Assembly (NCBI RefSeq): GCF_030291135.1
Contig: NZ_CP127409.1
Span: forward strand, 744,001-808,000
DNA length: 64,000 bases
Direction: 5' to 3'
From: Rhodanobacter thiooxydans
Lineage (GTDB): Bacteria > Pseudomonadota > Gammaproteobacteria > Xanthomonadales > Rhodanobacteraceae
The stretch's first letter is position 1. Each line of letters opens with the position of its first letter. Under the pieces are notes generated by a model. The model searched no databases, was not told where the DNA came from, and saw only the letters and a program-made list of their open reading frames with translations. Below, one piece after another: positions 14,567-33,717 of the stretch. Made by a program: the position numbers and the translations under genes.

Positions 14567-14580
14567 GTGTCCGCGGACAC
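14567..14580. promoter_or_regulatory. Palindromic upstream activator site for the sigma-54 promoter (candidate)
   Basis: GTGTCCGCGGACAC is a perfect 14-base palindrome. Its centre lies about 100 bases upstream of the start site predicted from the -24/-12 element at 14646, the usual distance for an enhancer-binding protein. The natural ligand would be the Fis-type activator encoded at 30555. A weaker CCGCGG-centred relative occurs 43 bases upstream (14526-14535), about four helical turns away. The rest of 14425-14706 shows no gene. Confidence 0.6.
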
Positions 14581-14645
14581 CGCGCGGATGGCGCGGTCAC
14601 CATCCAAGCGCATGAGAAACAAGTAATTATCCAGTCGTTTCCGAA

Positions 14646-14661
14646 TGGCACACGGATTGCA
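14646..14661 (+). promoter_or_regulatory. Sigma-54 (-24/-12) promoter of the permease-array locus
   Basis: TGGCACACGGATTGCA matches the RpoN consensus TGGCAC-N5-TTGCA at every defined position. It lies 45 bases upstream of the adaptor start codon, on the same strand as the whole locus. Transcription should begin near 14673. The matching activator gene sits at the far end of the same locus. Confidence 0.85.
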
Positions 14662-14706
14662 GAAGACCGTATGCAACCGCGCTGCACGCGGTCAGGAACG
14701 GCATAG

Positions 14707-15978
14707 ATGATCCGCGACACTTCCGCACAAGACCGACTGGTCGAGGTCAAACCCAACCGCAAGCGCCAGCTGATCCTGCTGGGCGCCGGCGTACTCGTGC
14801 TGGCGCTGCTGGCCTGGCTGGCGCCGGGCATCGGCCGGCTGTTCTCGGCGTCCGCCTCGGTCAGCAGTTCGCGGCTTGCCTTCGCCACCGTCGAGCGCGG
14901 CCCGTTCGTGCGCGACATCGCCGCCGAGGGCAAGGTGGTGGCGGCGGTCAGCCCGACCCTGTACGCCAACTCCGGCGGCGCGGTGACGCTGCAGGTGCAT
15001 GCCGGCGACACGGTGAAGATCGGCCAGGTGCTGGCCACCATCGTCAGCCCGGAACTGACCAACAAGCTGGCGCAGGAACAGAGCAACGCCGACGCGATGG
15101 AAGTGGAGTACCGGCGCGCGCAGATCGACGCGCGCAAGCAGCGTTCCGCGCTGCAGGAAACCTACGACAACGCGGTCATCGACCAGACCACCGCCGAGCG
15201 CAACCTCGATCGTTACCAGAAGGCGTATGCCAAGGGCGCGGTGTCCAACATGGACGTGGACAAGGCCAAGGACGCGGTGGACAAGTCGAAAATCGCTACG
15301 GCGCACGCCAAGGCCAACCTCGGCCTCGACAACGACAGCCTCAGCTTCGACATCCAGTCCAAGAAGCTCGCGCACGAGCGCCAGCTGCTGCTGGTGAAGG
15401 ACCTGCAGCGCCAGGTCGACGACCTCAACGTGAAGTCGCCGGTGGACGGCCAGGTCGGCCAGTTGTTCATCGCCGAGCGCGCCACCGTGGCCAAGGACGC
15501 GCAGCTGCTCAGCGTGATCGACCTGTCCGCGCTGCAGGTGGAGATGCAGGTGCCGGAAAGCTTCGCCCGCGATCTCGGCATCGGCATGGCCGGCGAGATC
15601 AGCGGCAACGGCCACACCTGGAAGGGCCTGGTCAGCGCGATCTCGCCGGAAGTGGTCAACGGCCAGGTCGCCGCGCGGCTGCGCTTCGAGGGCGACACGC
15701 CGAAGCAGCTGCGGCAGAACCAGCGCCTGTCGGTGCGCGTGCTGCTGGACAAGCGCGACAACGTGCTGACCGTGCAGCGCGGCTCGTTCGTCGACGAATC
15801 CGGCGGCAGCTATGCCTACCTGGTGCGCGACGGCATCGCCAAGAAAACCCCGATCCGCGTCGGCGCTTCCAGCATCGACAAGGTGGAGATCCTCGATGGC
15901 CTGAAGGAAGGCGACCGCATCGTGATCTCCGGTACCGACAGCTTCAAGGGCGCGGCCACGGTCGCGATCAGCAACTGA
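14707..15978 (+). CDS. Periplasmic adaptor (HlyD/MacA-type membrane fusion protein)
   Basis: Links an inner-membrane ABC transporter to an outer-membrane channel. The product is 423 residues. The N-terminal cytoplasmic tail is followed by one membrane anchor, about residues 20-40 (LILLGAGVLVLALLAWLAP). The biotinyl-lipoyl halves VERGPFVRDIAAEGKVVAAVSP and DLNVKSPVDGQVGQLFIAERATV flank a long charged coiled coil (about 120-230). Beta-barrel and membrane-proximal domains follow to LKEGDRIVISGTDSFKG. It is the first gene after the sigma-54 promoter and is followed by the ATPase gene across repeat R2. It is the only adaptor in the locus and no outer-membrane channel gene lies nearby, so a TolC homologue elsewhere is presumably used. 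Confidence 0.92.
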   Translation: MIRDTSAQDRLVEVKPNRKRQLILLGAGVLVLALLAWLAPGIGRLFSASASVSSSRLAFATVERGPFVRDIAAEGKVVAAVSPTLYANSGGAVTLQVHAGDTVKIGQVLATIVSPELTNKLAQEQSNADAMEVEYRRAQIDARKQRSALQETYDNAVIDQTTAERNLDRYQKAYAKGAVSNMDVDKAKDAVDKSKIATAHAKANLGLDNDSLSFDIQSKKLAHERQLLLVKDLQRQVDDLNVKSPVDGQVGQLFIAERATVAKDAQLLSVIDLSALQVEMQVPESFARDLGIGMAGEISGNGHTWKGLVSAISPEVVNGQVAARLRFEGDTPKQLRQNQRLSVRVLLDKRDNVLTVQRGSFVDESGGSYAYLVRDGIAKKTPIRVGASSIDKVEILDGLKEGDRIVISGTDSFKGAATVAISN

Positions 15979-15988
15979 CGCAGATTCA

Positions 15989-16095
15989 CTCCCTCCCCTA
16001 CATGCAGGGGAGGGCTGGGGTGGGGTAGCTATTCGTCACACAAGATCAAAAGCGTCACCCCCTCCCGACCTCCCCCTGCGCAGCAGGGGGAGGGG
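15989..16095. repeat. Type-1 palindromic intergenic repeat, copy R2 (adaptor-ATPase gap)
   Basis: Left hairpin arms CCCTCCCCT and AGGGGAGGG, then GGGGTGGGGTAGC, a centre with AAGATCAAAAGC, then CCCCTCCCGACCTCCCCCTG and its complement CAGGGGGAGGGG. It fills almost the entire gap between the two genes. Confidence 0.85.
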
Positions 16096-16129
16096 CAGAA
16101 CACCATCACCACCACCAAAGGACGCAACC

Positions 16130-16852
16130 ATGCTGAAGATGACCCACCTGTCCAAGGTCTACCGCACCGAAGTGGTGGAGACCTATGCGCTGCGCGATTT
16201 CAACATCGACGTGAAAGAGGGCGAGTTCGTCGCCGTCACCGGCCCGTCCGGCTCCGGCAAGACCACCTTTCTGACCATCGCCGGACTGCTGGAAACCTTC
16301 TCGGGTGGCGAGTACCACCTGGACGGCATCGAGGTGAGCAACCTCAACGACAACGCCCGCTCGAAGATCCGCAACGAGAAGATCGGCTTCATCTTCCAGG
16401 CGTTCAACCTGATCCCCGACCTCAACGTGTTCGACAACATCGAGGTGCCGCTGCGCTACCGCGGCATGAAAGCGGCCGAGCGCAAGCAGCGCATCATGGA
16501 GTCGCTGGAGCGTGTCGGCCTGGCCTCGCGCGCCAAGCACTATCCGGCCGAACTTTCCGGCGGCCAGCAGCAGCGCGTGGCGATCGCCCGCGCGCTGGCC
16601 GGCTCGCCGCGCCTGCTGCTGGCGGACGAACCGACCGGCAACCTGGACACCCAGATGGCGCGCGGCGTGCTCGAGCTGCTGGAGGACATCCATCGCGAAG
16701 GCGCCACCATCGTGATGGTCACGCACGACCCGGAACTGGCCGCCCGCGCCCAGCGCAACGTGCACATCATCGACGGCCAGGTGGTGGACCTGTCGGAGGA
16801 CCCGCGTTTCCACACCATGCACGCGGTCGAGGCCGACGAGGCGCATGGCTGA
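16130..16852 (+). CDS. ABC transporter ATPase, MacB/LolD type
   Basis: The only ATP-binding subunit in the locus, 240 residues with no membrane segment. Walker A GPSGSGKT is at 38-45, the Q-loop in [17 protein letters not shown], the signature LSGGQQQR begins at 142, Walker B LLLADEP has D166-E167, and the switch histidine is in MVTHDPELA. The profile is that of MacB, LolD and FtsE ATPases, which work with FtsX-like permeases by mechanotransmission. It must serve as the motor for the permeases that follow, because none carries its own ATPase domain. A 119-base gap with a type-3 repeat separates it from the first permease gene. Confidence 0.95.
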
Positions 16853-16859
16853 TTGGGCG

Positions 16860-16950
16860 GGAATAGAGAGCAGGGAATAGGGAATGGCAAAAGCGTGCAC
16901 GGACGTGGCGTCGTGGCAACTCCCTATCCCGATTCTCCATTTCCCACCCA
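16860..16950. repeat. Imperfect palindromic intergenic repeat, type 3
   Basis: Left part GGGAATAGAGAGCAGGGAAT followed by AGGGAATGG. The right part CCCTATCCCGATTCTCCATT is roughly its complement, about 50 bases away. It resembles the elements after glyA and after the dodecin gene. Confidence 0.5.
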
Positions 16951-16971
16951 CTTCTCCGGCAGAGATTCCTG

Positions 16972-18282
16972 ATGCTTGCCTACTACCTCCAACTCGGCCT
17001 GCGCAGCCTGCGGCGCAACCCCGCGCTCACCACCTTGATGGTGATGGCGATCGGCTTCGGCGTGGCCGCGTCGATGATCACCTGGTCGGTGTTCCGCGCG
17101 GTGTCGGGCAACCCGATCCCGGGCAAGTCCTCGCAGCTGTTCACGCCGCAGGTGGACGGCTGGGGGCCGCAGCAGAACCTGAAGGGCGAGCCGGCGGAAG
17201 CGCTGGGTTACGTCGACGCGATGGCGCTGCTGCGTGCGCTTCAGGCAAAGCGCCAGACCCTGCTGTATCCGGTGCAGCTGTCGGTGATGCCGGGAGGCAA
17301 CCGCGAGCTTCCGCTGAACGCCAACGGCTACGCCGTCACCGCCGATTTCTTCGGCATGTTCGAGGTGCCGTTTCGCTACGGCAGGGGCTGGGCCGCGCAG
17401 GACGACGACGCGCGGGCCAGCGACGTGGTCATCAGCAGCGAGCTCAACCAGAAGCTGTTCGGCGGCGCCGACAGCGTGGGGCGCACGCTCGGGCTGGGCG
17501 GCCATGACTTCCGCATCGTGGGCGTCGCCAGCCACTGGAACCCGCGCCCGCGCTTCTACGACCTGTTCAGCACCAGCGGCTTCGCCGACGAGCCGGACAT
17601 CTACATGGTGTTCAATCGCGCGCTGGACCTGCAGATGCGCACGGGCGGGCGCAACAGTTGCCGCGGTTCGATCAGCTACACCAGCTGGCAGGGCTACCTG
17701 CAGAGCAACTGCGTGTGGCTCACGCCGTGGGTGGAACTGGACAGCCCCGCCGAAGTCACCCGCTACCGTGCTTTCCTGGAGAACTACGCCGCCGACCAGC
17801 AGCGCGCGGGCCGCTTCGGCTGGGCCGCCAACGTGCGCCTGCGCGACGTGACGCAGTGGCTCGACTACGAGCATGTGGTGCCGCCGGAAAGCCGCATCGC
17901 GCTGGTGGTGGCACTGGGCTTCTTCCTGATCTGCCTGGTCAACACCATCGGCCTGCTGCTGGCCAAGTTCATGCGCCGCGCCGGCGAGATCGGCGTGCGC
18001 CGCGCGCTGGGCGCAACGCGCGGCGAGATCTACACGCAATACCTGGTCGAGGCCGGCACGGTGGGCCTCGCCGGCGGCGTGCTCGGCCTGCTGTTCACCG
18101 CGGTGGGCGTGTCCGGCGTGGGCATCCTGTTCCAGCCGGAGATCGCCAGGCTGGCGCGGCTCGACCTCTCGCTGGTGGGCCTGACCTTCGTGGTGGCGAT
18201 CCTCGCCACCGTGGCGGCAGCGTTCTACCCGGCGTGGCGCGCAGCACACGTGCAGCCCGCCTGGCAACTGAAGTCGAGCTGA
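16972..18282 (+). CDS. FtsX/MacB-type permease, A subunit of pair 1
   Basis: An ATPase-free permease of 436 residues. A first membrane helix (about 20-45, LTTLMVMAIGFGVAASMITW) is followed by a large periplasmic domain with the MacB-PCD signature DVVISSELNQKLFGGADSVG. Three C-terminal helices include the FtsX core FMRRAGEIGVRRALGATRG. The C-terminus AWQLKSS is typical of the A class. Two periplasmic cysteines (NSCRG and SNCVW) are conserved in position in all five A proteins and could form a disulphide. Only 10 bases separate it from its B partner. With A2 it forms the subgroup reading TWSVFRAVSG after helix 1. The substrate is unknown. Confidence 0.9.
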   Translation: MLAYYLQLGLRSLRRNPALTTLMVMAIGFGVAASMITWSVFRAVSGNPIPGKSSQLFTPQVDGWGPQQNLKGEPAEALGYVDAMALLRALQAKRQTLLYPVQLSVMPGGNRELPLNANGYAVTADFFGMFEVPFRYGRGWAAQDDDARASDVVISSELNQKLFGGADSVGRTLGLGGHDFRIVGVASHWNPRPRFYDLFSTSGFADEPDIYMVFNRALDLQMRTGGRNSCRGSISYTSWQGYLQSNCVWLTPWVELDSPAEVTRYRAFLENYAADQQRAGRFGWAANVRLRDVTQWLDYEHVVPPESRIALVVALGFFLICLVNTIGLLLAKFMRRAGEIGVRRALGATRGEIYTQYLVEAGTVGLAGGVLGLLFTAVGVSGVGILFQPEIARLARLDLSLVGLTFVVAILATVAAAFYPAWRAAHVQPAWQLKSS

Positions 18283-18292
18283 GGAGAGCGCC

Positions 18293-19531
18293 ATGCATAT
18301 CCAGATCAGGCCCATCCTCACCGCGCTGCGCCGGCACAAGGCGGGCACCCTGCTGATCGCGCTGCAGATCGCGCTGACGCTGGCCATCGTGTGCAATGCG
18401 TTGTTCATCATCCACCAGCGGCTGGCCAACCTGTCAGCGGCGAGTGGCGTGGACGAGGCGAACGTGTTCGTCATCCAGAACCAGTGGGCCGCCGACCGCT
18501 CGACGGAACAGGTCGATGCGCAGGTGCGCGCCGACCTGCTCGCGCTTCGGCAGCTGCCGGCCGTGCGCAACGCCACGCCGGCCAGCGGCTATCCGCTCAG
18601 GGGCGGCGGCTGGGACAACTTCGTCACCATGACGCCCGAGCAGGTCAAGCCGACCACGGATGCGGCGGTGTACACCGGCGACGAGCATTTCATCGACACG
18701 CTGGGCCTGAAGCTCGTCGCCGGGCGCAATTTCCGCCCTGACGAGGTGATGGTGATGGGCACCCAGCAGGCCATCACGCCGCCGACGGCGATCGTGAGCA
18801 AGGCGCTGGCCGACCGTTTGTTCCCCGACGGCAAGGCGCTGGGCAAAAGCTTCTACGCGATGGGCACCGAGCCGAGCACCATCGTCGGCATCGTCGACCC
18901 GCTGCACCGGCAGGGCGTGGACCAGTGGAGCAACGGCTATGCCGGGCAGGCGCTGATCTGGCCGATGCGGGCGGATGACGCGCGCGGGATCTACTACATC
19001 GTGCGCGCCAAACCCGGCCAGCTCGCCGACGCCATGCGCGAGGCGCCCAAGGCGTTGTACGCGCAAAGCCGCCTGCGCATCATCGAGCCGAAGGACGGCA
19101 TCCAGGACTACGCCGCCATCCGTCACAAGGTCTACGATCGCGACCGCGGCATGGCGATCCTGATGGGCATCATCAGCGTGGTGCTGCTGGCGATCACCGC
19201 CGCGGGCATCGTCGGCCTCACCAGCTTCTGGGTCGGCCAGCGGCGCAAGCAGATCGGCGTGCGCCGCGCGCTGGGCGCCAGGCAGCGCGACATTCTCGCC
19301 TACTTCCTCACCGAGAACTTCCTGATCAGCGCGACGGGCGTGGTGCTGGGCGCCGTGCTGGCGGTCGCCTTCAACCTGTGGACGGTGACCCGTTTCGAGA
19401 TGAGCCACATGTCGATGGCCTACGTGGGCATTGGCATGGTGGCGCTGCTCCTGCTCGGCCAGGGCGCGGTGCTTGCGCCGGCGTTGCGTGCTTCGCGCGT
19501 GTCGCCGGTGGAGGCGACGCGCTCGGTGTGA
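18293..19531 (+). CDS. FtsX/MacB-type permease, B subunit of pair 1
   Basis: The product is 412 residues with one N-terminal helix, a periplasmic domain and three C-terminal helices. The B-class opening is IRPILTALRRHKAGTLLIAL, with the helix-1 motif AIVCNALFII. The periplasmic core SKALADRLFPDGKALGKSF is the MacB-PCD signature, and the FtsX region reads GLTSFWVGQRRKQIGVRRAL. It ends PVEATRSV, as MacB-like proteins do. It starts 10 bases after A1 with GAGGAGAGCGCC before the ATG, so it is almost certainly co-translated. It probably forms a heterodimer with an A protein. That pairing is inferred from gene order. Confidence 0.9.
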   Translation: MHIQIRPILTALRRHKAGTLLIALQIALTLAIVCNALFIIHQRLANLSAASGVDEANVFVIQNQWAADRSTEQVDAQVRADLLALRQLPAVRNATPASGYPLRGGGWDNFVTMTPEQVKPTTDAAVYTGDEHFIDTLGLKLVAGRNFRPDEVMVMGTQQAITPPTAIVSKALADRLFPDGKALGKSFYAMGTEPSTIVGIVDPLHRQGVDQWSNGYAGQALIWPMRADDARGIYYIVRAKPGQLADAMREAPKALYAQSRLRIIEPKDGIQDYAAIRHKVYDRDRGMAILMGIISVVLLAITAAGIVGLTSFWVGQRRKQIGVRRALGARQRDILAYFLTENFLISATGVVLGAVLAVAFNLWTVTRFEMSHMSMAYVGIGMVALLLLGQGAVLAPALRASRVSPVEATRSV

Positions 19532-19534
19532 TTT

Positions 19535-19663
19535 CTCCCTCCCCTGTGACCGAAGGGAATCCATCTTCGGGACAAGCAGGGGAGGGCTGGGGTGGGGTGC
19601 TCTTGCTCTTTGCCTCAAAAGCTTCACCCCCTCCCGACCTCCCCCTGCCAAGGCAGGGGGAGG
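19535..19663. repeat. Type-1 palindromic intergenic repeat, copy R3 (pair 1-pair 2 gap)
   Basis: The usual arms CTCCCTCCCCTG and CAGGGGAGGG are separated here by a 27-base insert containing its own small hairpin (CCGAAGGGA...TCTTCGGG). A T/C-rich centre follows, then the right hairpin CCCCTGCCAAGGCAGGGGG. The insert recurs in R4 and R5, marking a sub-variant limited to this locus within the window. Confidence 0.85.
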
Positions 19664-19686
19664 AGACCAACAACGGAGTGACCGCA

Positions 19687-21003
19687 ATGTTTTCCTACTA
19701 CCTCGAACTGGCGTTGCGCAGCCTGAAACGCAGCCCCGGCCTCACCGCACTGATGGTGCTGGCGATCGGCTTCGGCGTGGCCGCGTCGATGACCACCTGG
19801 TCGGTGTTCCGCGCCGTGTCGGGCGATCCGATCCCGTGGAAGTCCGCGCAGTTGTTCGTGCCGCAGATCGACAACTGGGGGCCGAACGGACGCGGCAGCG
19901 ACGGCGAGCCGCCGGACGCGATGTCCTACAACGAGGCGATCACCCTGATGCGCGATCACCGCGCCAAGCTGCAGTCGGCGATGTATCAGATTTCCCCGTC
20001 GATCGTGCCGGCGGATGCCAGCAAGCATCCGATCAACGTCAGCGGCCATGCGGTCTACAGCGAATTTTTCCCGATGCTGGACGTGCCGTTCCTGTTCGGC
20101 AGCGGCTGGAGCGCCACCGACGACGCGCAACGCGCCGCCGTGGTGGTGATCAGCAGCAAGCTCAACCAGAAGCTGTTCGGTGGCAGCAACAGCGTGGGCA
20201 GGACGGTCAACGTCGAGGGCAAGGACTATCGCGTGGTTGGCGTGCTGAACGACTGGAATCCGCAGCCGCGTTTCTTCGACGTGGTCAACAGCGGCGGCTT
20301 CTCCACCGGTGTCGAGGATGTGTTTGTGCCGTTCCAGCGCGCCATCGCGGTTGGCATGCCGAACGACGGCAATACCAATTGCAACGCGGTGCCGGCCGAA
20401 TCGGGATTCGTCGGCCTGCAGCACTCCGCTTGCGTGTGGATTGCCTACATGGCCGAACTGGACGACGCGGCTGCGGTGACGGCTTACAAGCAGTATCTCG
20501 ACGGTTATGCGCGCGACATGCAGCAGTCCGGCCGCTTTGGCTGGGCGCCGAACAACCGCCTGCGCGACCTGCCGTCATGGCTGGACAACCAGCATGTCGT
20601 GCCCAGCGATACCAAGGTATCGCTGCTGGTGGCGCTGGGCCTGCTGCTGGCATGCCTGGTCAACACGACCGGCCTGCTGCTGGCGAAGTTCCTGCGTCGC
20701 AGCGGCGAGATCGGCGTACGCCGCGCACTGGGTGCGCCGCGCCTGGCGATCTATGCGCAGTTCCTGGTCGAGGCCGGCATTGTCGGACTGAGCGGGGGCT
20801 TGCTTGGCTTGCTGCTGACCGGTGTCGGGGTGGCCAGCGTGGGCTGGGTGTTGCCGAAGGACATCGCCGCACTGGCGCGGGTCGACTTCTCGCTGCTCGT
20901 GCTCACGCTGCTGGTGGCCGTCATCGCGACCATGCTGGCCGGGCTCTATCCCACTTTCCGCGCCTCGCGCGTGCAGCCGGCGTGGCAGCTCAAGTCCAAT
21001 TAG
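19687..21003 (+). CDS. FtsX/MacB-type permease, A subunit of pair 2
   Basis: The product is 438 residues. The start ATG at 19687 gives MFSYYLELALRSLKRSPGLT, matching the other A proteins. The open frame extends about 300 bases upstream, but through B1 and the repeat. Helix 1 is LMVLAIGFGVAASMTTWSVF. The periplasmic signature is VVVISSKLNQKLFGGSNSVG. The cysteine pair is in TNCNAV and SACVW. The FtsX core is LRRSGEIGVRRALGAPRLAI, and it ends AWQLKSN. It is closest to A1 by eye (shared TWSVFRAVSGDPIP and NWGP segments). An 87-base gap containing a type-2 repeat separates it from B2. Confidence 0.9.
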   Translation: MFSYYLELALRSLKRSPGLTALMVLAIGFGVAASMTTWSVFRAVSGDPIPWKSAQLFVPQIDNWGPNGRGSDGEPPDAMSYNEAITLMRDHRAKLQSAMYQISPSIVPADASKHPINVSGHAVYSEFFPMLDVPFLFGSGWSATDDAQRAAVVVISSKLNQKLFGGSNSVGRTVNVEGKDYRVVGVLNDWNPQPRFFDVVNSGGFSTGVEDVFVPFQRAIAVGMPNDGNTNCNAVPAESGFVGLQHSACVWIAYMAELDDAAAVTAYKQYLDGYARDMQQSGRFGWAPNNRLRDLPSWLDNQHVVPSDTKVSLLVALGLLLACLVNTTGLLLAKFLRRSGEIGVRRALGAPRLAIYAQFLVEAGIVGLSGGLLGLLLTGVGVASVGWVLPKDIAALARVDFSLLVLTLLVAVIATMLAGLYPTFRASRVQPAWQLKSN

Positions 21004-21004
21004 C

Positions 21005-21070
21005 GTGCTGTCCCCATGCACGAAAGCAGCCATCCATGGCCGCACTCCTCAATAAAGCCGGCTTCATAGG
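21005..21070. repeat. Type-2 palindromic repeat (A2-B2 gap)
   Basis: The core GCAGCCATCCATGGCCGC (21026-21043) is a near-perfect palindrome. It is preceded by GTGCTGTCCCCATGCACG and followed by ACTCCTCAATAAAG. The same core and flanks occur in the A3-B3 and A4-B4 gaps, with a degenerate copy after B5. Confidence 0.8.
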
Positions 21071-21090
21071 GTAGTAAAAGGAAAATCATC

Positions 21091-22344
21091 ATGACCCTGC
21101 ATCCCATTCTTGCGGCATTGCGCAAACACAAGGCCGGCGTCGTGCTCATTTCGCTGCAGATCGCGCTGACTCTGGCGATCGTCTGCAATGCGGTGTTCAT
21201 CATCGGCCAGCGTGTCGAACGGGTGAACCGGCCCACCGGCCTCGACGAGAACGATCTGTTCCTGGTCTCCCAGCAATGGGTGGGTGCGCCGAGCGGGGAT
21301 GATCCGGCCGGCGTGGAAAAACTCGACGTGATGCAGCGGGAGGACCTGGCGGCGCTGCGCAACCTGCCCGACGTGGCCTCGGTGGCGCCGAGCAATTCGA
21401 TACCGCTGCTCAATTCCTCGTGGACGGGTGCGTTGTCGCTCAAGCCCGATCAGAAATTTGAAAAAGGCATCACGCGTACGGCGTACTACTTCACCGACGA
21501 GCATGCCCTGGCCACGCTGGGGCTGCGCCTGGTTTCCGGCCGCGCCTTCACTGCCGCTGACGTGCAGCATCAGGGTGCCCGCGACCAGCGCAATCGTCCG
21601 ATCGTGATCGTGACCCAGGCGCTGGCCGACAAGCTGTTCCCGCAAGGCGGTGCGGTAGGCAAGGTGGTCTATACCGACGGCAGCAGTGCACCGAGCACCG
21701 TCATCGGTGTGGTTGCGCGCCTGCAGACACCCAGCACCGGCAGCTTCGGCAACGATTTCGCCTGGAACTCGACCCTGGTGCCGGCCCGGCTGGATGCGAA
21801 CTTTGCGCGCTATGTGGTGCGGGCCAAACCGGGCCGGCGCGATGCGGCGATGCACGCCGTGCCCGCGGCGCTGTATGCAGTGAACCCGATGCGCGTGCTC
21901 GACGACGACAGCGTCAAGTCATTCACCGATATCCGCGCCAGCGCCTACCGCGCCGACGTCGGCATGGCGATCCTGATGGGCGTGGTCTGCCTGATCCTGC
22001 TCTGCGTCACCGCCGCCGGCATCGTCGGCCTGACCAGTTTCTGGGTCGGCCAGCGGCATCGGCAGATCGGCGTGCGCCGCGCGCTGGGCGCGCGCAAGGT
22101 CGACATCCTGCACTACTTCCAGATCGAGAACCTGCTGATCGCCGGCACCGGCGTGGTAATTGGCGTGCTGCTGGCGGTGGGCCTGAACATGTGGCTGATG
22201 AGCCATTACGAGATGACCCGCATCCCGCTGTCGTACGTGCTGGCCGGCGTGCTGGCGATGCTGGCGATCGGCCAGGCCGCGGTGTTCGTGCCGGCCAGGC
22301 GTGCGTCCAACGTGCCGCCGGTGGAGGCGACGCGGGCGGCGTGA
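21091..22344 (+). CDS. FtsX/MacB-type permease, B subunit of pair 2
   Basis: The product is 417 residues with the B-class layout. The opening is LHPILAALRKHKAGVVLISL and helix 1 is AIVCNAVFIIGQR. The periplasmic signature is TQALADKLFPQGGAVGKVV, and the FtsX segment is GLTSFWVGQRHRQIGVRRAL. It ends PPVEATRAA. It shares with B1 the LTSFWVGQR stretch and the LSYVLAGVLA-type last helix, unlike B3-B5. The ATG follows AAAAGGAAAATCATC. Type-1 repeat R4 lies directly downstream. Confidence 0.9.
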   Translation: MTLHPILAALRKHKAGVVLISLQIALTLAIVCNAVFIIGQRVERVNRPTGLDENDLFLVSQQWVGAPSGDDPAGVEKLDVMQREDLAALRNLPDVASVAPSNSIPLLNSSWTGALSLKPDQKFEKGITRTAYYFTDEHALATLGLRLVSGRAFTAADVQHQGARDQRNRPIVIVTQALADKLFPQGGAVGKVVYTDGSSAPSTVIGVVARLQTPSTGSFGNDFAWNSTLVPARLDANFARYVVRAKPGRRDAAMHAVPAALYAVNPMRVLDDDSVKSFTDIRASAYRADVGMAILMGVVCLILLCVTAAGIVGLTSFWVGQRHRQIGVRRALGARKVDILHYFQIENLLIAGTGVVIGVLLAVGLNMWLMSHYEMTRIPLSYVLAGVLAMLAIGQAAVFVPARRASNVPPVEATRAA

Positions 22345-26596: not shown

Positions 26597-26601
26597 GAGC
26601 A

Positions 26602-27825
26602 ATGAAAACCATGCAGATCCAGCCCATCCTTGCCGCCCTCCGTCGCCATCGGCTGGCAAGCATCCTGATCGCACTGGAAATCGCGCTGGCCTGCGCGGTG
26701 CTGTGCAATGCCTGCTTCCTGATCGTCAACCGCGTGCAGCAGACGCGGGTGATCAGCGGCGTCGACGAGAGTGCCCTGGCTGCCATCAAGCTGACCGGCT
26801 ATGACCCGGCGAGGGGCATCGACCTCAATGCACGCGTGCTCAGCGGCCTTGCCAAGCTTCCCGGCGTGCAGTCGGTGAGCGCGATCAACCAGGTGCCATT
26901 CGGCGACCACGCCGGCACCGCCGGCATCACCACCGATCCGGAGGGCAAACGCTTCGGTGGCGTGGTGGATTTTTATGTCGGTGGCCCGGGCAGCTTCAAG
27001 GCGCTCGGCGTGCAGCTGGTCGCTGGTCGCGTGCCGCAGCCCGGCGATTACCAGCCGGTCGATTTCTTCGTGCCGGATGACTCCGCCGTATGGGTGACCC
27101 GCGCGCTGGCCGAGCACCTGTGGCCGGGCGTCGACCCGCTGGGCAAGGAATTCTGGACCGGGAAATTCCACTTCCGGGTGGCCGGCGTGCTGGCACACCT
27201 GGCGCGTCCCTACGGTGGCGAGGGCGGCCCGAGCACGATCGAATGGTCGGTATACGTGCCGGCGCAGCCGGGTGTACAGCTTGCAGCCGTCTACCTGCTG
27301 CGCGCCGATCCCGTCCAATTGCCGCGGGTGCTGCGCGACGCGCGGGCCGCGATGGCCACCATCGCCCCCGACGCGGTGCTCGACAGCAAGGCAAGCCAGA
27401 CCATCGGCAGCCTGCGCGAGAACTATTTCCGGCAGGACCGCGTCATGGCCGGCATCCTTGTCGGCGTGATCGCCGCCCTGCTGCTGGTCACCGCGCTCGG
27501 CATCGTCGGCCTGGCCAGCTTCTGGGTGCAGCAGCGCCGCCGCCAGATTGGGGTGCGCCGCGCGCTGGGCGCCACCCGCGGCGACATCCTGCGCTACTTC
27601 CAGACCGAGAACTTCCTGATCGTCACGGGCGGCATCGCGCTGGGCATGCTGCTCGCCTTCGCGCTGAACCTGGTGCTGATGCAGCACTACGAGTTGCCGC
27701 GATTGCCGCTGTATTACCTGCCGATCGGCGCGCTGCTGCTGTGGGGGTTGGGGCAGCTGGCGGTGCTCGGTCCGGCGCTGCGCGCCGCGGCGGTACCGCC
27801 GGTGGTGGCGACGCGGTCGGTGTGA
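26602..27825 (+). CDS. FtsX/MacB-type permease, B subunit of pair 4
   Basis: The product is 407 residues. The opening is [20 protein letters not shown], after MKT, and helix 1 is CAVLCNACFLIVNR. The periplasmic signature is TRALAEHLWPGVDPLGKEF. The FtsX segment is GLASFWVQQRRRQIGVRRAL followed by GATRGDILRYFQTENFLI. The C-terminal part is MQHYELPRLPLYYLPIGALL and ends PPVVATRSV. It has an unusual second cysteine in helix 1 (CNAC). The start is preceded by AAAGAGCA, a weak ribosome-binding site, in line with dependence on upstream translation. Confidence 0.9.
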   Translation: MKTMQIQPILAALRRHRLASILIALEIALACAVLCNACFLIVNRVQQTRVISGVDESALAAIKLTGYDPARGIDLNARVLSGLAKLPGVQSVSAINQVPFGDHAGTAGITTDPEGKRFGGVVDFYVGGPGSFKALGVQLVAGRVPQPGDYQPVDFFVPDDSAVWVTRALAEHLWPGVDPLGKEFWTGKFHFRVAGVLAHLARPYGGEGGPSTIEWSVYVPAQPGVQLAAVYLLRADPVQLPRVLRDARAAMATIAPDAVLDSKASQTIGSLRENYFRQDRVMAGILVGVIAALLLVTALGIVGLASFWVQQRRRQIGVRRALGATRGDILRYFQTENFLIVTGGIALGMLLAFALNLVLMQHYELPRLPLYYLPIGALLLWGLGQLAVLGPALRAAAVPPVVATRSV

Positions 27826-27834
27826 CGCTTTTTA

Positions 27835-27928
27835 CTCCCTCTCCTGCTTTGCAGGGGAGGGTTGGGGAGGGGTGCTTTTGCCTGTGGGAAAGAGCACCCC
27901 CTCCCTCCCCTTGTGAGCAGGGGGAGGA
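27835..27928. repeat. Type-1 palindromic intergenic repeat, copy R6 (pair 4-pair 5 gap)
   Basis: Left hairpin CTCCTGCTTTGCAGGGGAGG, then GGTTGGGGAGGGGTGCTTTT, a short centre, and the right arms CCCCCTCCCTCCCC with GCAGGGGGAGGAG. It lacks the 27-base insert of R3-R5. Confidence 0.85.
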
Positions 27929-27949
27929 GATGGTCCATGGAGTGATGAC

Positions 27950-29251
27950 ATGTTTGCCTACTACCTCGACCTGGCGCTGCGCAGCCTGAAGCGCAACAAG
28001 GTGCTCACCGCGCTGATGGTGCTGGCGATCGGGCTGGGCATCGGCGCCAGCATGACCACGCTGACCGTGATGCACCTGCTGTCGGGCGACCCATTGCCGG
28101 AGCGCAGCGGCAGGCTGTTCCATCCGCAGGTGGATCCGAAGCCCGCGGATCCACACGAGCTGCCCGGGCAGATGACGTACATCGACGCGATGAACCTGTG
28201 GCATTCCGGTCGTGCCGATCGCCAGGCCATCCTGGTGGGCTCGAACGTGAAGGTGAAAGCGGCGCAGGCCGGCGCGAAGCCGATGGGGCTGCATACCCTG
28301 GCGACGACGGCAGATTTCTTCCCGATGTTTGGCGTGTCGTTCATCCATGGCGGTCCGTGGACGGCGGCCGATGACACCGGCAAGGCCCGGGTCGCCGTGC
28401 TTTCGCGCAGTGCCTACGAGCGGCTTTTCCACGGCCGCGACGGCGTCGGTCAGCCGATCCGCATAGGGCAGTGGGATTTCCGCGTCGTCGGGGTGATCGA
28501 GGACTGGCGGCCCGCGCCGCATTTCTACGACCTGGATCGCGATGCCTATGGCCAGGGCGACGACGTGTTCATCCCGTTCCTGACCTCGCGCGATCTGGCC
28601 GAGCTCGGCATCACCGGCTACAGCCTGGATTGCTATGGCACGACCACCGACGACCTCCATCTGGAAAACCAGCCCTGCCTGTGGCTGAAGTTCTGGGTCG
28701 AGCTGGACAGCCCGGCCAGGGTCCATGCGTATCGCCGGTTCCTGGACAACTATTCGCGCGAGCAGCAGGCGCAGGGTCGCTTCATTTATGCCGGGGCGCC
28801 ACGCACGGCCTTGCCCGACGTGATGCAGTGGCTGGACCAGAACGGGGTGGTGCCGGCGGACGTCCGCCTCAAGGCGTGGATCGCGTTCGGCTTCCTGCTG
28901 GTTTGCCTGATGAACACGACGGGATTGCTGCTGGCCAAGTTCCTGCAGCGCGGCGCCGAGATCAGCGTGCGCCGCGCGCTCGGCGCGTCGCGCCGGCAGG
29001 TGTTTTTCCAGTGCCTGGTGGAGGCGGCCATCGTAGGCGCTGCCGGCGGCGTGCTCGGCCTGCTGCTGGCCTGGGCGGGCCTGTGGGGCATTCGCCAGAC
29101 GCCGGCGGACTACGCCGACCTGGCGCGTCTCGACGTGTCGATGTTCGCGATGACCTTCGCGCTGTCGATCGCGGCCAGCCTGCTCGCCGGTTTGTTGCCG
29201 GCCTGGCGTGCCTGCCATATCGCTCCCGCCCTCCAGCTCAAGACCCTCTGA
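27950..29251 (+). CDS. FtsX/MacB-type permease, A subunit of pair 5
   Basis: The product is 433 residues. The opening is MFAYYLDLALRSLKRNKVLT and helix 1 LMVLAIGLGIGASMTTLTVM. The periplasmic signature is the most divergent of the five, VAVLSRSAYERLFHGRDGVG. The cysteine pair is retained in LDCYGTT and QPCLW. The FtsX core is LQRGAEISVRRALGASRRQV, and it ends PALQLKTL. Nine bases separate it from B5, with no repeat in between, as in pair 1. Confidence 0.9.
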   Translation: MFAYYLDLALRSLKRNKVLTALMVLAIGLGIGASMTTLTVMHLLSGDPLPERSGRLFHPQVDPKPADPHELPGQMTYIDAMNLWHSGRADRQAILVGSNVKVKAAQAGAKPMGLHTLATTADFFPMFGVSFIHGGPWTAADDTGKARVAVLSRSAYERLFHGRDGVGQPIRIGQWDFRVVGVIEDWRPAPHFYDLDRDAYGQGDDVFIPFLTSRDLAELGITGYSLDCYGTTTDDLHLENQPCLWLKFWVELDSPARVHAYRRFLDNYSREQQAQGRFIYAGAPRTALPDVMQWLDQNGVVPADVRLKAWIAFGFLLVCLMNTTGLLLAKFLQRGAEISVRRALGASRRQVFFQCLVEAAIVGAAGGVLGLLLAWAGLWGIRQTPADYADLARLDVSMFAMTFALSIAASLLAGLLPAWRACHIAPALQLKTL

Positions 29252-29260
29252 GGCATACAC

Positions 29261-30469
29261 ATGCAGCTACGCCATGTCCTTGCCGCATTGCCCCGACACA
29301 AGCTGGTCTGCCTGCTGGTGGCGGTCGAGATCGCGGTGGCCTTCGCGATCCTGTGCAACGCGATCTTCATCATCCGCGGACGCGTGCAGCAGATGCAGAT
29401 CACCACCGGCATTGCCGAGGACGGCTTGATCTACATCCACAACGACGGCGTCGGCGATGACGCCAATGCGCCGCTGGTCGCCCGCAACCTGGCGGCGCTG
29501 CGCGGCCTGGGCGGCGTGCAGTCCGCGGTGGCGATGTTCCCGTTGCCGCTGGAGAACATGTCGATCAATTTCCGGCCGTGGCTGACCCCGGACATGAAGC
29601 TGCGCGGCCCGGCTGTCGGCATGTTCGTCGGCACACCGGGTTACCTGGACACGCTGGGGTTGAAGATCGTGCAGGGCCGCGATTTCAACGACGCGGAATA
29701 CGACGGCATGGTTCAGACCTGGAAGACGCTGTCGCCAGCGGCGATCGTCACCCGCGACCTTGCCGACAAGCTGTGGCCCGGACAGAACCCGATCGGCAAG
29801 ACATTCTGGCGCAGCCCGAGCCGCGGCTACACCGTGGTCGGCGTGGTCGAGCGGCTGGTGCGCGGCTACCTGCGCAAGGACTTCGTGCCGGAATACTCGG
29901 CGATGTTCCCGGTCAGGCCGGTGTCTTTCGTGTCGTCGCTCTACGTGATGCGGGTGGCGCCGTCCGATCGCGACCGGCTGCTGCGCGAGTCCTCGGACCT
30001 GCTGCTGAAACTCAACCCGGACATGCTGATCGACGCCAGCGGCAGCTATGCCGACATGCGTGCGGATTATTTCCGCCAGGACGCGTCGCTGGTGTGGCTG
30101 CTGGCCCTGGTCTGCGTGGCAATGCTGCTGGTGACCGCACTGGGCATCGCCGGGCTGGCCAATTTCTGGGTGCAGCAGCGTGGCCGCAGCATCGGCATAC
30201 GGCGGGCCATCGGTGCCACCCGTGGCGACATCCTGCGCTACTTCCAGGCCGAGAATTTCCTGATCGTCGGTTTCGGCATCGCGCTGGGCGTGCTGCTGGC
30301 CTTCGTGCTCAACCTGCTGCTGATGACGCACTACGAACTGCCGCGCCTGCCGCTGTCCTACCTGCCGGTCGGCGCGCTGGTGCTGTGGGGGCTGGGGCAA
30401 CTGGCGGTGCTCGGCCCGGCGTTACGCGCGGCGGCGGTGCCGCCGGTGGTGGCGACGCGGTCGACATGA
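29261..30469 (+). CDS. FtsX/MacB-type permease, B subunit of pair 5
   Basis: The product is 402 residues. The opening MQLRHVLAALPRHKLVCLLV has P in place of the R of other B proteins. Helix 1 is FAILCNAIFIIRGR. The periplasmic signature is TRDLADKLWPGQNPIGKTF. The FtsX segment is GLANFWVQQRGRSIGIRRAI with GATRGDILRYFQAENFLI. The end is PPVVATRST. It belongs with B3 and B4. The regulator gene follows after 85 bases that include a degenerate type-2 repeat. Confidence 0.9.
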   Translation: MQLRHVLAALPRHKLVCLLVAVEIAVAFAILCNAIFIIRGRVQQMQITTGIAEDGLIYIHNDGVGDDANAPLVARNLAALRGLGGVQSAVAMFPLPLENMSINFRPWLTPDMKLRGPAVGMFVGTPGYLDTLGLKIVQGRDFNDAEYDGMVQTWKTLSPAAIVTRDLADKLWPGQNPIGKTFWRSPSRGYTVVGVVERLVRGYLRKDFVPEYSAMFPVRPVSFVSSLYVMRVAPSDRDRLLRESSDLLLKLNPDMLIDASGSYADMRADYFRQDASLVWLLALVCVAMLLVTALGIAGLANFWVQQRGRSIGIRRAIGATRGDILRYFQAENFLIVGFGIALGVLLAFVLNLLLMTHYELPRLPLSYLPVGALVLWGLGQLAVLGPALRAAAVPPVVATRST

Positions 30470-30471
30470 GC

Positions 30472-30552
30472 AGCAAGCCGGGTATACGCGTGACCATAGT
30501 CATGGCAACCTTTCGGACCGGAGCGGCATCCATAGCCGCATGTGCAGAAAAA
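30472..30552. repeat. Degenerate type-2 repeat (after B5)
   Basis: The core GCGGCATCCATAGCCGC (30523-30539) keeps the palindromic plan of the other three type-2 copies with one base lost and one changed. The upstream flank is not conserved. Confidence 0.6.
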
Positions 30553-30554
30553 AG

Positions 30555-31901
30555 ATGCGAACCGTACTGATCATCGACGACAACCCGGCCGTGGGCGAGG
30601 CGCTTTCGCTGGCCTTGTCGCTGCACGAGATCCGCCCGCTCGCCGCGCTGACGCCCGACGAAGGCCTGCTCGCGCTGGAGCGCGAGGCGGTCGACGTGGT
30701 GATCCAGGACATGAACTTCACCGCCGACACCACCTCGGGCGAGGAGGGCGTGGCGCTGTTCCGCGCGATCCGCGAGCGCCATCCGGACCTGCCGGTGATC
30801 CTGCTGACCGCGTGGACGCACCTGGAGACCGCGGTGGAGCTGGTCAAGGCCGGCGCCGCCGATTACCTGGCCAAGCCGTGGGACGACAACAAGCTGCTGG
30901 CCACGGTGGAGAACCTGCTGGAGCTGTCCGAGTCGACCCGCGAGGTGGCGCGCAGCCGGCTTGAGCGCCGCCAGCGGCGTGAGCACCTGCGCAGCAAGTT
31001 CGACCTCGATGGCCTGGTGTTCGCCTCCGAGGCGATGGGGCGCACGCTCAACCTGGCCTGCCAGGTGGCCCGTTCCGACGTGCCGGTGCTGATCACCGGT
31101 CCCAACGGCACCGGCAAGGAGCGCATCGCGGCGATCGTGCATGCGAACTCAGCGGTGAAGCGCGGCCCGTTCGTGGCGGTGAACTGCGGCGCGCTGCCCG
31201 GCGAACTGATCGAGGCGGAGCTGTTCGGCGCCGAGGCCGGCGCGTACACCGGTGCCAACAAGGCGCGCGAAGGGCGTTTCGAGCTGGCCGACGGCGGCAC
31301 GCTGTTCCTGGACGAGATCGGCAACCTGCCGCTGCCCGGCCAGATGAAGCTGCTGCGCGTGCTGGAGACCGGTCAGTTCGAGCGGCTCGGTTCCGGCAAG
31401 ACGCGGCAGGCCAAGGTGCGCGTGTTGAGCGCGACCAACGCCGACCTCAAGGCAATGATCCAGGCCGGCACCTTCCGCGAGGACCTGTACTACCGGCTCA
31501 ACGTGATCGAGGTGAACCTGCCGCCGCTGAGCGAGCGCAACGACGACATCCTGCCGCTGGCCGAATTTTTCCTGGACGGTCGCGCCGAGCTCGGCGACGC
31601 CGCGCGCGAGGCCATGCTGGCCTACCCGTGGCCGGGCAATGTGCGCGAGCTGAAGAACGCGATCGAGCGCGCATCGCTGCTGGCCGGGGGCCAGCCGATC
31701 ACCCCCGAGCTGCTGAACCTGCCGCAGTACGTGGCGATGGCCCCGGCGGCACGAAATCTGGACGAGCCCAGCCGCGAGGCGGTGGAAAGCGCACTGCACA
31801 AGGCCGATGGCGTGGTCAGCCGCGCGGCACAGAGCCTGGGCCTCTCGCGCCAGGCGCTGTATCGGCGGATGGAGCGCTACGGCCTGGCAACCACGGCTTG
31901 A
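30555..31901 (+). CDS. Sigma-54-dependent response regulator (NtrC family)
   Basis: The product is 448 residues with three domains. The receiver (about 1-120) has acidic residues D8-D9, the phosphoacceptor D52 in VVIQDMNF and the lysine in LAKPWD. The AAA+ domain has Walker A GPNGTGKE, the sigma-54 loop GAYTGA at 229-234 (Y replaces the usual F, an accepted variant), Walker B GGTLFLDEIG and the arginine finger region FREDLYYRLN. A C-terminal Fis helix-turn-helix reads AAQSLGLSRQALYRRMERYG. It should activate the -24/-12 promoter at 14646. The ATG at 30540 is an alternative start but lies inside the repeat; MRTVLIIDDN is preferred because the receiver begins there. The partner kinase is at 32338. 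Confidence 0.94.
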   Translation: MRTVLIIDDNPAVGEALSLALSLHEIRPLAALTPDEGLLALEREAVDVVIQDMNFTADTTSGEEGVALFRAIRERHPDLPVILLTAWTHLETAVELVKAGAADYLAKPWDDNKLLATVENLLELSESTREVARSRLERRQRREHLRSKFDLDGLVFASEAMGRTLNLACQVARSDVPVLITGPNGTGKERIAAIVHANSAVKRGPFVAVNCGALPGELIEAELFGAEAGAYTGANKAREGRFELADGGTLFLDEIGNLPLPGQMKLLRVLETGQFERLGSGKTRQAKVRVLSATNADLKAMIQAGTFREDLYYRLNVIEVNLPPLSERNDDILPLAEFFLDGRAELGDAAREAMLAYPWPGNVRELKNAIERASLLAGGQPITPELLNLPQYVAMAPAARNLDEPSREAVESALHKADGVVSRAAQSLGLSRQALYRRMERYGLATTA

Positions 31902-31979
31902 GTGATCTGTGACGACGATGCTTGCCCCGACCCCGAAGGCGTAGAAAGATGAGTGCATGCATCCAGCAGGGGAGGCGTC

Positions 31980-32306
31980 ATGCGATATCGCCGGATCATG
32001 CTTGTTGCCGCCTGGCTGACCGCCGGCGTGGCCATGGCGCAGGTGCCGTCAGTCTCCCGCGAGGCGTGGGCATGGCAGCCGGTCGCCGCCGCTGCGGTCG
32101 AGTACCGACTCGGCTCGCCGATGGTGCTGGCGGACGCCGGGAGCAGCCCGTTCCGCTTCAGCGATGGCCGCGAGCGCGACCTGGTGAACAAGCCGCCGCC
32201 ACGTCCGATGGACCGGGCTGCCGTGCTCGGCACCGAGCGTGGCTGGGTGGGCGGGCGACCACCGCTCGATTGCGCGATGACACCGATCGACGCCAGGTGC
32301 CACTGA
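31980..32306 (+). CDS. Small exported protein of unknown function between regulator and kinase
   Basis: Not recognised. The product is 108 residues. The start at 31980 follows GGGGAGGCGTC. The signal peptide MRYRRIMLVAAWLTAGVAMA ends in a clear AMA site before QVPSVSREAW. The mature part of about 87 residues is proline- and arginine-rich with no helix pattern, and has two cysteines close to the C-terminus (DCAMTPIDARCH). It sits between the response regulator and the sensor kinase, so it may be a periplasmic accessory of signalling or of the transporter. That role is inferred from position only. Confidence 0.65.
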   Translation: MRYRRIMLVAAWLTAGVAMAQVPSVSREAWAWQPVAAAAVEYRLGSPMVLADAGSSPFRFSDGRERDLVNKPPPRPMDRAAVLGTERGWVGGRPPLDCAMTPIDARCH

Positions 32307-32337
32307 GCCGGCTTTTTCCCGCCGGGGAGAACAGCCA

Positions 32338-33717
32338 ATGTGGCGTCGCCTGAATTCGCTGCAGGGGCGCCTGACCTTTTTGCTGGCGGTGGCCGGCCTG
32401 GCCGGCGCGCTGGTCTATGCCGGCGTCACCCAGTGGCCGCTGCCGCAGTTGCTGCTGTGGCTGCACAAGGACCTGTCGCTGTCGATCCGCGCGCCGATGC
32501 AGCTGGGCATCTACGGCGGCCTGCTGGCCAGCGTGGTGGTGCTGCTGCCACTGTCGTTCTGGCTGGCCGGTCGGGTGATGGCGCCGGTGAGTCGGCTGCT
32601 GCGCGCGCTGGAAGGCGCGGTGGCCAGCTACCGCGACGGTGATTTCAGCTTCTCGATCGCGGTGAACCGGCGCGACGAGCTGGGTGAGCTGATCCGCATG
32701 CACAACGCGCTGGGCCAGACCCTGCGCGAGCAGCGCCAGCACCTGGTGCAGCGTGAGCTGCTGCTCGACACGGTGGTGCAGAACACCCCGGTGGCGCTGG
32801 TGCTGACCGATGCGATCGGCAAGGTGGCCTACGCCAACATCGCCTCGCGGCACCTGTTCAACGAAGGCCGCAGCCTGGTCGGGCTGGACTTCGCCGAACT
32901 GCTGGCCGAGGCGCCCGAGGCGCTGCGCAAGGCGGTGGAGAGCGGCGAGGATGCCCTGCTCAGCGTGGAGATGGACGGCAGCGAGGAAACCTTCCACCTG
33001 TCGCAGCGCGCGTTCCGGCTGCAGGGCCGGCCGCACCGACTGCACCTGTTCCGGCGCATGACGCGCGAGCTGTCGCGGCAGGAAGTGGCGACCTGGAAGC
33101 GGGTGATCCGGGTGATCAGCCACGAGCTCAACAACTCGCTGGCGCCGATCACCTCGCTGGCGCACTCCGGCGCGGAGCTGGCCCGCCGCGGCCAGCTCGA
33201 GCGGTTGCCCGGCGTGTTCGCCACCATCGGCGAGCGCGCGCTGCACCTGCACCGCTTCATCGCCGGCTACGCCAGCTTCGCCAAGCTGCCCACGCCACAG
33301 CCGGTGGACATCGCGTGGAAGCCGTTTCTGGATGGGCTGGCGTTGCATTGCCAGTACCGCCTGGCAACACCGGCGCCGCAACGACCGGGGCATTTCGATG
33401 CAGTGCAGGTCGAGCAGGTGCTGATCAACCTGATCAAGAACGCGCACGAGTCGGGTGGGCCGGCGGACGAGGTCACGCTGTCGATCCAGGATGTCGGCAA
33501 CGAGTTGCGCATCGAGGTGGCCGACCGCGGCCCCGGCATGAGCGAGACGGTGCTGGCGCAGGCATTGCTGCCGTTCTATTCGACCAAGCGTTCCGGCACC
33601 GGCCTGGGCCTGGCGCTGGCACGCGAGATCACCGAGGCGCACGGCGGCCGTGTGCTGCTGGCCAACCGCGAGGGCGGCGGCCTGCGGGTGAGCCTGCGCC
33701 TGCCGCAGTCGCGCTAG
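32338..33717 (+). CDS. Sensor histidine kinase (HAMP-PAS-HisKA-HATPase)
   Basis: The product is 459 residues, NtrY-like. Two membrane helices (about 12-32 and 58-80) enclose only some 25 periplasmic residues. A HAMP segment (about 80-132), a PAS domain (about 140-230), the phosphorylated H262 in RVISHELNNSLAPIT, and an ATPase domain with N-box LINLIKNAHES, DRGPGM and GTGLGLALAREI follow. It is the expected partner of the sigma-54 regulator upstream. The minimal periplasmic loop recalls intramembrane-sensing kinases that read the state of an associated ABC transporter. Whether that holds here is inference. Confidence 0.93.
   Translation: MWRRLNSLQGRLTFLLAVAGLAGALVYAGVTQWPLPQLLLWLHKDLSLSIRAPMQLGIYGGLLASVVVLLPLSFWLAGRVMAPVSRLLRALEGAVASYRDGDFSFSIAVNRRDELGELIRMHNALGQTLREQRQHLVQRELLLDTVVQNTPVALVLTDAIGKVAYANIASRHLFNEGRSLVGLDFAELLAEAPEALRKAVESGEDALLSVEMDGSEETFHLSQRAFRLQGRPHRLHLFRRMTRELSRQEVATWKRVIRVISHELNNSLAPITSLAHSGAELARRGQLERLPGVFATIGERALHLHRFIAGYASFAKLPTPQPVDIAWKPFLDGLALHCQYRLATPAPQRPGHFDAVQVEQVLINLIKNAHESGGPADEVTLSIQDVGNELRIEVADRGPGMSETVLAQALLPFYSTKRSGTGLGLALAREITEAHGGRVLLANREGGGLRVSLRLPQSR

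Follow-up and report, generated by a model that had tools for sequence, protein, structure and literature searches.

How a single ABC ATPase and a single periplasmic adaptor could serve ten permeases is the question raised by a locus of Rhodanobacter thiooxydans that lies in the stretch of DNA analyzed here (the window, 64,000 nucleotides (nt) of contig NZ_CP127409.1, from a source genome of 3.52 Mb in a single contig). At positions 14707–33717 of the window, genes for the adaptor, the ATPase, five A-B pairs of permeases, a sigma54 response regulator and a kinase follow each other on the plus strand. An initial annotation had proposed this gene content, orientation and order, with the permeases in strict A-B-A-B succession, and it was borne out in these respects: every gene is open and in the proposed place, and all ten permeases group into five A-B units. 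To our knowledge, in the type VII exporters described so far each ATPase works with a single permease dimer. Our analysis suggests that the locus probably encodes a tripartite exporter related to MacAB-TolC (type VII ABC), modular and inducible, in which the ATPase and the adaptor would be common to alternative A-B heterodimers.

The permease genes, all on the plus strand, are A1 (16972–18282), B1 (18293–19531), A2 (19687–21003), B2 (21091–22344), A3 (22504–23811), B3 (23898–25133), A4 (25222–26544), B4 (26602–27825), A5 (27950–29251) and B5 (29261–30469); the starts of A2 (19687, GTG), A3 (22504) and B3 (≈ 23898) differ slightly from those in the list of open reading frames. The units are spaced by ≈ 2.7 kb, and direct repeats, in families with as many as five members, run in register with them. 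The profile searches proposed in the initial annotation were run. Pfam, applied to A1–A3 and B1–B3, returned FtsX for 6/6 and MacB_PCD for 5/6 proteins, the exception being B3, and a genome scan with PF12704 (MacB_PCD) matched 8/10 permeases, the exceptions being B3 and B4. NCBIfam, applied to A1, B1, A4, B4, A5 and B5, aligned the A proteins with positions 5–401 and the B proteins with positions 410–802 of TIGR03434, the profile of the acidobacterial duplicated orphan permease (ADOP) family, and the same division into an N half and a C half was obtained for all ten permeases (A2, B2, A3 and B3 included) when the profile was scanned from the genome side. The halves scored 160–187 bits in the six permeases run and the joined frames at most 367 bits, which is below the cut-off of 622.3 for a full ADOP. 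With the A proteins on the N half of the profile and the B proteins on its C half, an A-B pair is, judged from these matches, a single ADOP permease divided over two genes; the suggestion that the genes be compared with this family was a good one, and fused forms are present within the same genus. Additionally, profiles built from 60 A and 60 B proteins matched the MacB structures 5lil, 5nik and 5gko (E 3.9e-23 for A and 5.8e-31 for B), the B profile aligning with MacB over almost the whole permease part, and by these alignments the pairs are type VII (MacB-fold) ABC permeases in split form. Internal stops were found in 0/10 permeases, and the ATPase-contact (coupling) loop was seen in all ten (in A3 by eye) and in both of the pairs located elsewhere in the genome, so that the scenario of frameshifted genes or a lost contact helix did not materialize.

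The number of pairs was followed in relatives collected by querying genome contigs with the adaptor (106 relatives, 80 loci kept). The regulator was sought in 50 of the 80 loci; 49 had one, and 48 were extended to it. Together with the genus arrays G017, G025 and G027, the already complete loci and the window, this gave 62 regulator-bearing arrays, or 61 after removal of G025, which is the same genome as L061. An array was taken as complete when its regulator was seen, and arrays without a regulator were not counted; the duplicate G025 was left out of the pair-relatedness analysis and retained in the sigma54 scan and in the comparisons of paralogue and orthologue identity. A strictly intact (AB)n arrangement was found in 56/61 complete arrays, including the window, with n from 1 to 11: one pair in two arrays, two in seven, three in three, four in 12, five in 12, six in seven, seven in six, eight in two, nine in four and 11 in one, the last being that of Rhodanobacter glycinis MO64. 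The adaptor and the ATPase were seen in 60/61 arrays (the stretch of G027 starts downstream of both, and its ATPase was found separately), and so was the kinase (the stretch of L043 ends before the kinase position). Among 40 further stretches from genomes of the family, 29 had a regulator and no partial permease, with n = 1–6; ten of these 29 arrays had a single pair, nine of them from the genera g2, g5, g15, g17 and g26, with adaptors 51–55% identical, and one from g18 with a close adaptor. The array of G174 (g25), the adaptor of which is 52% identical, has three pairs. The distant single-pair operons probably represent the ancestral starting state. The multi-pair array noticed in the window is real, whereas five is not a count specific to the system, in view of the range of 1–11, and two further pairs lie elsewhere in the source genome.

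For each of the 280/280 intact pairs, the closest relative was a pair in another array or genome, so the pairs are old types that have been retained. A rival reading is that the pairs are redundant, all doing the same job as dosage copies or as by-products of recombination. Pair number does vary greatly among relatives, as would be expected from such amplification. The spacers of the window carry GC-rich repeats resembling repetitive extragenic palindromic elements before the ATPase (16046–16090), before A2 (19615–19659) and before A3 (22409–22453); they are possible recombination sites and could promote tandem duplication. However, recent dosage copies are expected to be nearly identical, whereas no pair had its nearest relative in its own array, divergence within arrays is large and 56/61 arrays are intact, which makes redundancy a very improbable explanation. 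The distances of A and B proteins within arrays are correlated (r = 0.868, compared with a mean of 0.08 and a maximum of 0.191 in 500 shuffles), and in 13079/14842 comparisons (88%, compared with 24% by chance) the A and the B of a pair had the same nearest partner. A free combination of any A with any B, by which five pairs would give up to 25 pumps, would be compatible with the finding that all five A proteins align with each other, as do all five B proteins, with common conserved columns; but each A is inherited as a unit with its own B, and the fused ADOPs fix the pairing, so that we give such a combinatorial system little credence. The same fused proteins suggest that A and B of a pair are in contact.

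Of the proteins of the operon, the ATPase is conserved best. The mean pairwise identity across arrays was 0.940 for the ATPase, 0.861 for the regulator, 0.792 for the adaptor, 0.747 for the kinase, and 0.695 and 0.644 for A and B orthologues, respectively. Among paralogues within arrays, A identity was 0.74 at residues 321–340, 0.67 at 341–360, 0.64 at the C-terminus and 0.68 at the N-terminus, and B identity was 0.79 and 0.73 over residues 301–340 and 0.85 at residues 401–410 (the C-terminus), while identity in periplasmic stretches fell to 0.17–0.19. In MacB, the nucleotide-binding domain is contacted by a major coupling helix between transmembrane segments 2 and 3 and by a minor one at the C-terminus (passages in PMC5985334); by the alignment of the B profile with MacB and by a shared motif, A321–360 and B301–340 appear to correspond to the major coupling helix.

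The ATPase itself (16130–16852, plus strand) belongs to the type VII clade and carries Walker A, LSGGQ and LLADEP motifs. Its nearest named family in NCBIfam is DarD, followed by LolD, FtsE and MacB, and it remains below the equivalog cut-offs of DarD (258 vs. 375 bits) and LolD (217.8 vs. 307.75 bits). There is one close copy of it in the source genome, and no second one was found there that could support the scenario of a separate, distant ATPase for each pair, which had been raised together with the initial annotation. A further 13 ATPases were matched at E ≤ 1e-20, of which the best three are 41–45% identical, and it could be imagined that the local ATPase serves the first pair only and that the other pairs use LolD, YbbA or MacB-like ATPases of the genome. 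Yet two of these three nearest ATPases adjoin MacB_PCD hits and the third is located ≈ 2 kb from a weak TIGR03434 match, the coupling loop is retained in all ten permeases and in the pairs elsewhere, and the ATPases of the fused systems accompany their own permeases; we regard recruitment of other ATPases as very improbable. In the 45 genomes of the genus, 42 have the ATPase at E ≤ 1e-60, 40 with exactly one copy at least 92% identical and one with a cut copy at 90%.

The two further A-B pairs of the source genome are located near 870 kb and 2755 kb, and the 19 kb of surrounding sequence read for each contained no matching ATPase or adaptor. The absence of a nearby ATPase, which defines the "orphan" of the ADOP name, therefore applies only to these two pairs and not to those of the operon. 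The pair at ≈ 2754–2757 kb adjoins another regulator and a kinase-like gene, and because of these neighbors it may respond to a different signal. Taken together, the single motor gene and its high conservation, the well-conserved coupling-helix segments, the retained contact loops and the pairs lacking an ATPase nearby support, and do not prove, one motor common to alternative heterodimers.

The adaptor (14707–15978, plus strand), of the HlyD/RND_mfp type, matches HlyD_D23 and RND_mfp above their cut-offs in the Pfam and NCBIfam searches, with DarC third at 86.8 bits against a cut-off of 450. An adaptor of this type is single-copy in the source genome, and adaptors are up to 97% identical in Rhodanobacter loci. 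The distance between the ATPase and A1 exceeds 1 kb in 20/81 loci; a TolC-type gene was found in all four of the gaps read, and PF02321 (OEP) was confirmed in the two that were scanned. Because a TolC-type gene thus follows the ATPase in some relatives, these loci point to a tripartite exporter.

A second type of ATPase, 51–57% identical to the first, was found in 11/45 genus genomes next to one to three fused ADOPs; these permease counts are minima, since the best 17 candidates were scored in most genomes. This second system (L148, L149, L152 and L153) combines the related ATPase with tandem fused ADOPs, and its adaptor was confirmed in L148 and its sigma54 regulator in L152. In G040, two second-type ATPases stand by two fused ADOPs, so sharing of the ATPase is not the rule in the fused system of that genome. 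The same genome contains (L150, G040:C12:96000–115500) a nonribosomal peptide synthetase (NRPS) gene with TubC_N, condensation, AMP-binding and PCP domains. Its flanks carry two related ATPase genes, two genes for fused ADOPs and one adaptor-like gene, possibly an exporter inside a biosynthetic cluster. As to the substrates of the array, peptides or similar amphipathic compounds are perhaps the class to be considered first, although we put this forward tentatively; export of the peptide type is favored because a fused ADOP relative adjoins the NRPS gene, because the nearest named ATPase, DarD, comes from a peptide-antibiotic cluster, and because of the TolC-type genes.

The region upstream of the adaptor suggests how the whole operon might be switched on. 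The stretch delimited in the initial annotation starts at 14567, one base before the palindrome TGTCCGCGGACA (14568–14579, no strand assigned), which was recognized by alignment of loci and genome scan and is a putative upstream activating sequence bound by the response regulator; it is followed by a sigma54 promoter of the −24/−12 type, TGGCACACGGATTGCA (14646–14661, plus strand), the best scan match upstream of the adaptor. Such a best site begins 47–64 nt upstream of the adaptor in 81/81 loci (L019 and L033, with too little upstream DNA, were left out of the scan), scoring 21–23 of 23, compared with averages of 16.2–18.1 and a top score of 22 for 20 shuffles of each locus. In the palindrome, 11 of 12 bases are invariant across 13 aligned loci, and the last base is retained in 12/13. 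Taken singly, both elements are weak: the exact motif TGGCACN5TTGCA occurs once in the source genome and twice in the reversed control, and TGTCCGCGGACA with at most one mismatch occurs at 19 places per strand compared with nine for the reversed pattern. There are three perfect copies of TGTCCGCGGACA in the source genome, each paired with a sigma54 box, and it is only the composite site (palindrome, 55–85 nt, −24/−12 box) that is clean against controls, with 97 sites in 43/45 genus genomes and none for the reversed control. Arrays account for 42 of the 97 sites, 38 being assigned by the distance to the ATPase, three by the reading frame that follows the site, and the last by eye. The response regulator gene (30540–31901, plus strand; NCBIfam) encodes an NtrC-type protein with the receiver aspartate in the context QDM, a Walker A motif and a GAYTGA loop; a regulator with a loop of the GAFTGA type, a −24/−12 promoter and an upstream palindrome are the constituents of an NtrC-type regulon, and all are present at the level of sequence.

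The sensor histidine kinase (32338–33717, plus strand; NCBIfam) has two hydrophobic transmembrane cores with only ≈ 25 residues between them. A short loop of this sort is also a feature of kinases that sense through a transporter. An alternative reading is that the A-B-ATPase complexes are mainly an array of sensors rather than a pump, similar to FtsEX or BceAB-type systems, perceiving envelope stress or ligands and signaling to the kinase, with several pairs widening the range of signals. The kinase, nearly devoid of an outer domain, would fit this function, as would its position behind the regulator in 60/61 arrays, the single-pair ones included, and MacB homologues that are not pumps have been proposed to act in transmembrane signaling (passages in PMC5985334). 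On the other hand, the adaptor gene comes first in all arrays with the start seen, and the TolC-type insertion in some of them fits export, a relative of the system adjoins the NRPS gene, and no kinase was seen in two of the 29 complete arrays of the further family set; we consider a sensor array unlikely. In the window, regulator and kinase genes are separated by ≈ 440 nt (31902–32337); in the Luteibacter arrays L068 and L077, the two that were measured, the spacers are 26 and 28 nt long.

The composite sites outside the arrays, together with the promoter and the enhancer palindrome, extend the picture beyond what had been noticed initially, as they reveal apparently co-regulated genes elsewhere in the genomes. 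Of these 55 sites, 52 precede a peptide of 49–73 amino acids starting with MKFE, MKYE or MKIE (the MKFE family), and the site of L181 was assigned to such a peptide by eye. By eye also, the site of L180 precedes an alpha/beta-hydrolase-like gene and that of L218 a gene with a signal-like start. The source genome carries two MKFE genes, at ≈ 353.8–354.1 kb and ≈ 3009.6–3009.9 kb, encoding 67 and 52 amino acids, which are not linked to the array and have the same palindrome and sigma54 box. When the search was reversed, using a protein profile made from 19 peptides, 28 of the 30 best peptide loci had a composite site; 12 of these loci, from the genus, overlap the first set, and the loci from other genera had the site in 16/18 cases. 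The family was found in 89 of 157 sampled family genomes (at most the best 38 candidates per genome were scored), with ten matches in G200; by class of adaptor, it was present in 87/104 genomes with a close adaptor and in 2/53 others, a comparison uncorrected for descent.

The MKFE peptides have one hydrophobic segment starting at residue 6–11 (19-residue mean 2.1–2.8) and a variable tail, and 42 of the 52 contain C-x(5–9)-C. Nine columns are invariant in the first 26 residues of 19 sequences and none further on, an N-terminal conservation that seems more in keeping with a membrane partner or a recognized leader than with an ordinary signal peptide. Pfam and NCBIfam, applied to two of the peptides, gave nothing at E ≤ 1. 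A separate proposal, which placed an M16-type peptidase under the control of the palindrome at 354 kb, was rejected, since the sigma54 box there faces the opposite way, toward the MKFE peptide. The broader notion of a peptidase regulon was weakened: an M3-type peptidase (identified by eye) follows some peptide genes, and other genes follow the rest.

These observations can be combined in the following model of the exporter. The five pairs of the operon and the two located elsewhere would share one ATPase and one adaptor, each A-B heterodimer docking two copies of the ATPase via the conserved coupling helices and presenting a periplasmic head of its own, with which it would accept its own range of substrates. 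Substrates from the periplasm or the inner membrane would be passed to the adaptor and on to an outer-membrane channel by mechanotransmission. The kinase and the regulator encoded at the end of the operon would switch it on as a whole through one sigma54 promoter, with the regulator presumably binding the TGTCCGCGGACA enhancer, and the unlinked MKFE genes would be induced together with the operon by the same circuit, their products serving the pump as small accessory subunits in the membrane or as feedback factors. A more elaborate version, possible but doubtful, assumes one motor-adaptor chassis that takes any of a set of exchangeable heterodimeric heads, expanded to 11 in one species. The set would be sigma54-switched together with the MKFE proteins, a new family of membrane micro-proteins that would select, recruit or be exported by particular heads, and the orphan ADOPs would borrow the single DarD-like ATPase of the cell.

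Several results weigh against the shared-motor exporter. No TolC gene lies between the ATPase and A1 in the window. Permeases are broken or unpaired (missing, split or partial) in 5/61 arrays (L016, L034, L035, L039 and L051), and neither a palindrome nor a sigma54 site was detected in the stretches searched upstream of the two orphan pairs. The agreement of the A and B trees shows units of inheritance, not contacts, and could arise from linked duplication alone. Accelerated diversification of the periplasmic heads was not observed: at equal identity of the transmembrane segments and loop, divergence within arrays is equal to or lower than that between arrays. The number of MKFE peptides did not follow that of pairs in 43 peptide-bearing genomes (rho 0.08); over 59 genomes with both counts, rho was 0.48, uncorrected for descent. 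Moreover, the five g24 genomes read, which have 2–4 pairs each, yielded no MKFE peptide.

The downstream neighbors of the array are ordinary, namely NfeD-like and ThrE-like genes (34722–36445) and, on the opposite strand, a uroporphyrinogen decarboxylase gene (44763–46190).

If the more elaborate version of the model holds, type VII exporters would have a way of working that is new for them, and the ADOP "orphan" permeases would gain a motor. The natural series of 1–11 pairs behind one ATPase makes motor sharing and head specialization testable in soil bacteria, and the clean sigma54 regulon of operon and MKFE family provides a way to approach both the inducing signal and the substrate. For the many ADOP permeases to which no function is assigned, the system also provides a concrete partner; genes annotated as ADOP are reported in many copies, 28 and 33 in two Dyadobacter genomes, likewise with no assigned function (passages in PMC11573002).

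With MacAB-TolC, the array shares MacB-fold permeases, a periplasmic adaptor and, in some relatives, a TolC-type gene. It differs by its separate ATPase, by two permease types in pairs, 1–11 per ATPase, and by sigma54 control, MacB being a homodimer with the ATPase fused to the permease (passages in PMC5985334). With ADOP, it shares identical profile positions, A corresponding to the N half and B to the C half, but its permeases are split into two genes, score below the cut-off and are linked to an ATPase and an adaptor. DarBCD is close in that DarD is the nearest family of the ATPase and DarC is among the nearest of the adaptor; both matches are, however, far below the equivalog cut-offs, the array has several pairs, and none of the six permeases searched in NCBIfam matched a DarB-named family. 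Passages in PMC9055067 describe darBCD as not essential for darobactin production. LolCDE has, like the array, a heterodimeric type VII permease and a separate ATPase (passages in PMC5985334), whereas the array adds an adaptor and many pairs, and the six permeases run reached at most 27.8 bits with LolCE against a cut-off of 362.45. In the MceG importers (PMC9947336) and the MsmK importers (PMC4519317), several sets of permeases appear to draw on a single ATPase. These systems are importers, in contrast to the MacB-type exporter proposed here. We know of no tandem permease pairs behind the ATPase in either of them. Among the open-licence PMC matches listed, neither one ATPase with multi-pair arrays (in titles and abstract openings) nor a sigma54 regulon with a micro-protein family was described. 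Within this literature scope, the parts of the system are known, while its arrangement, with up to eleven pairs behind one ATPase, and the predicted regulon of operon and micro-proteins appear to be new.

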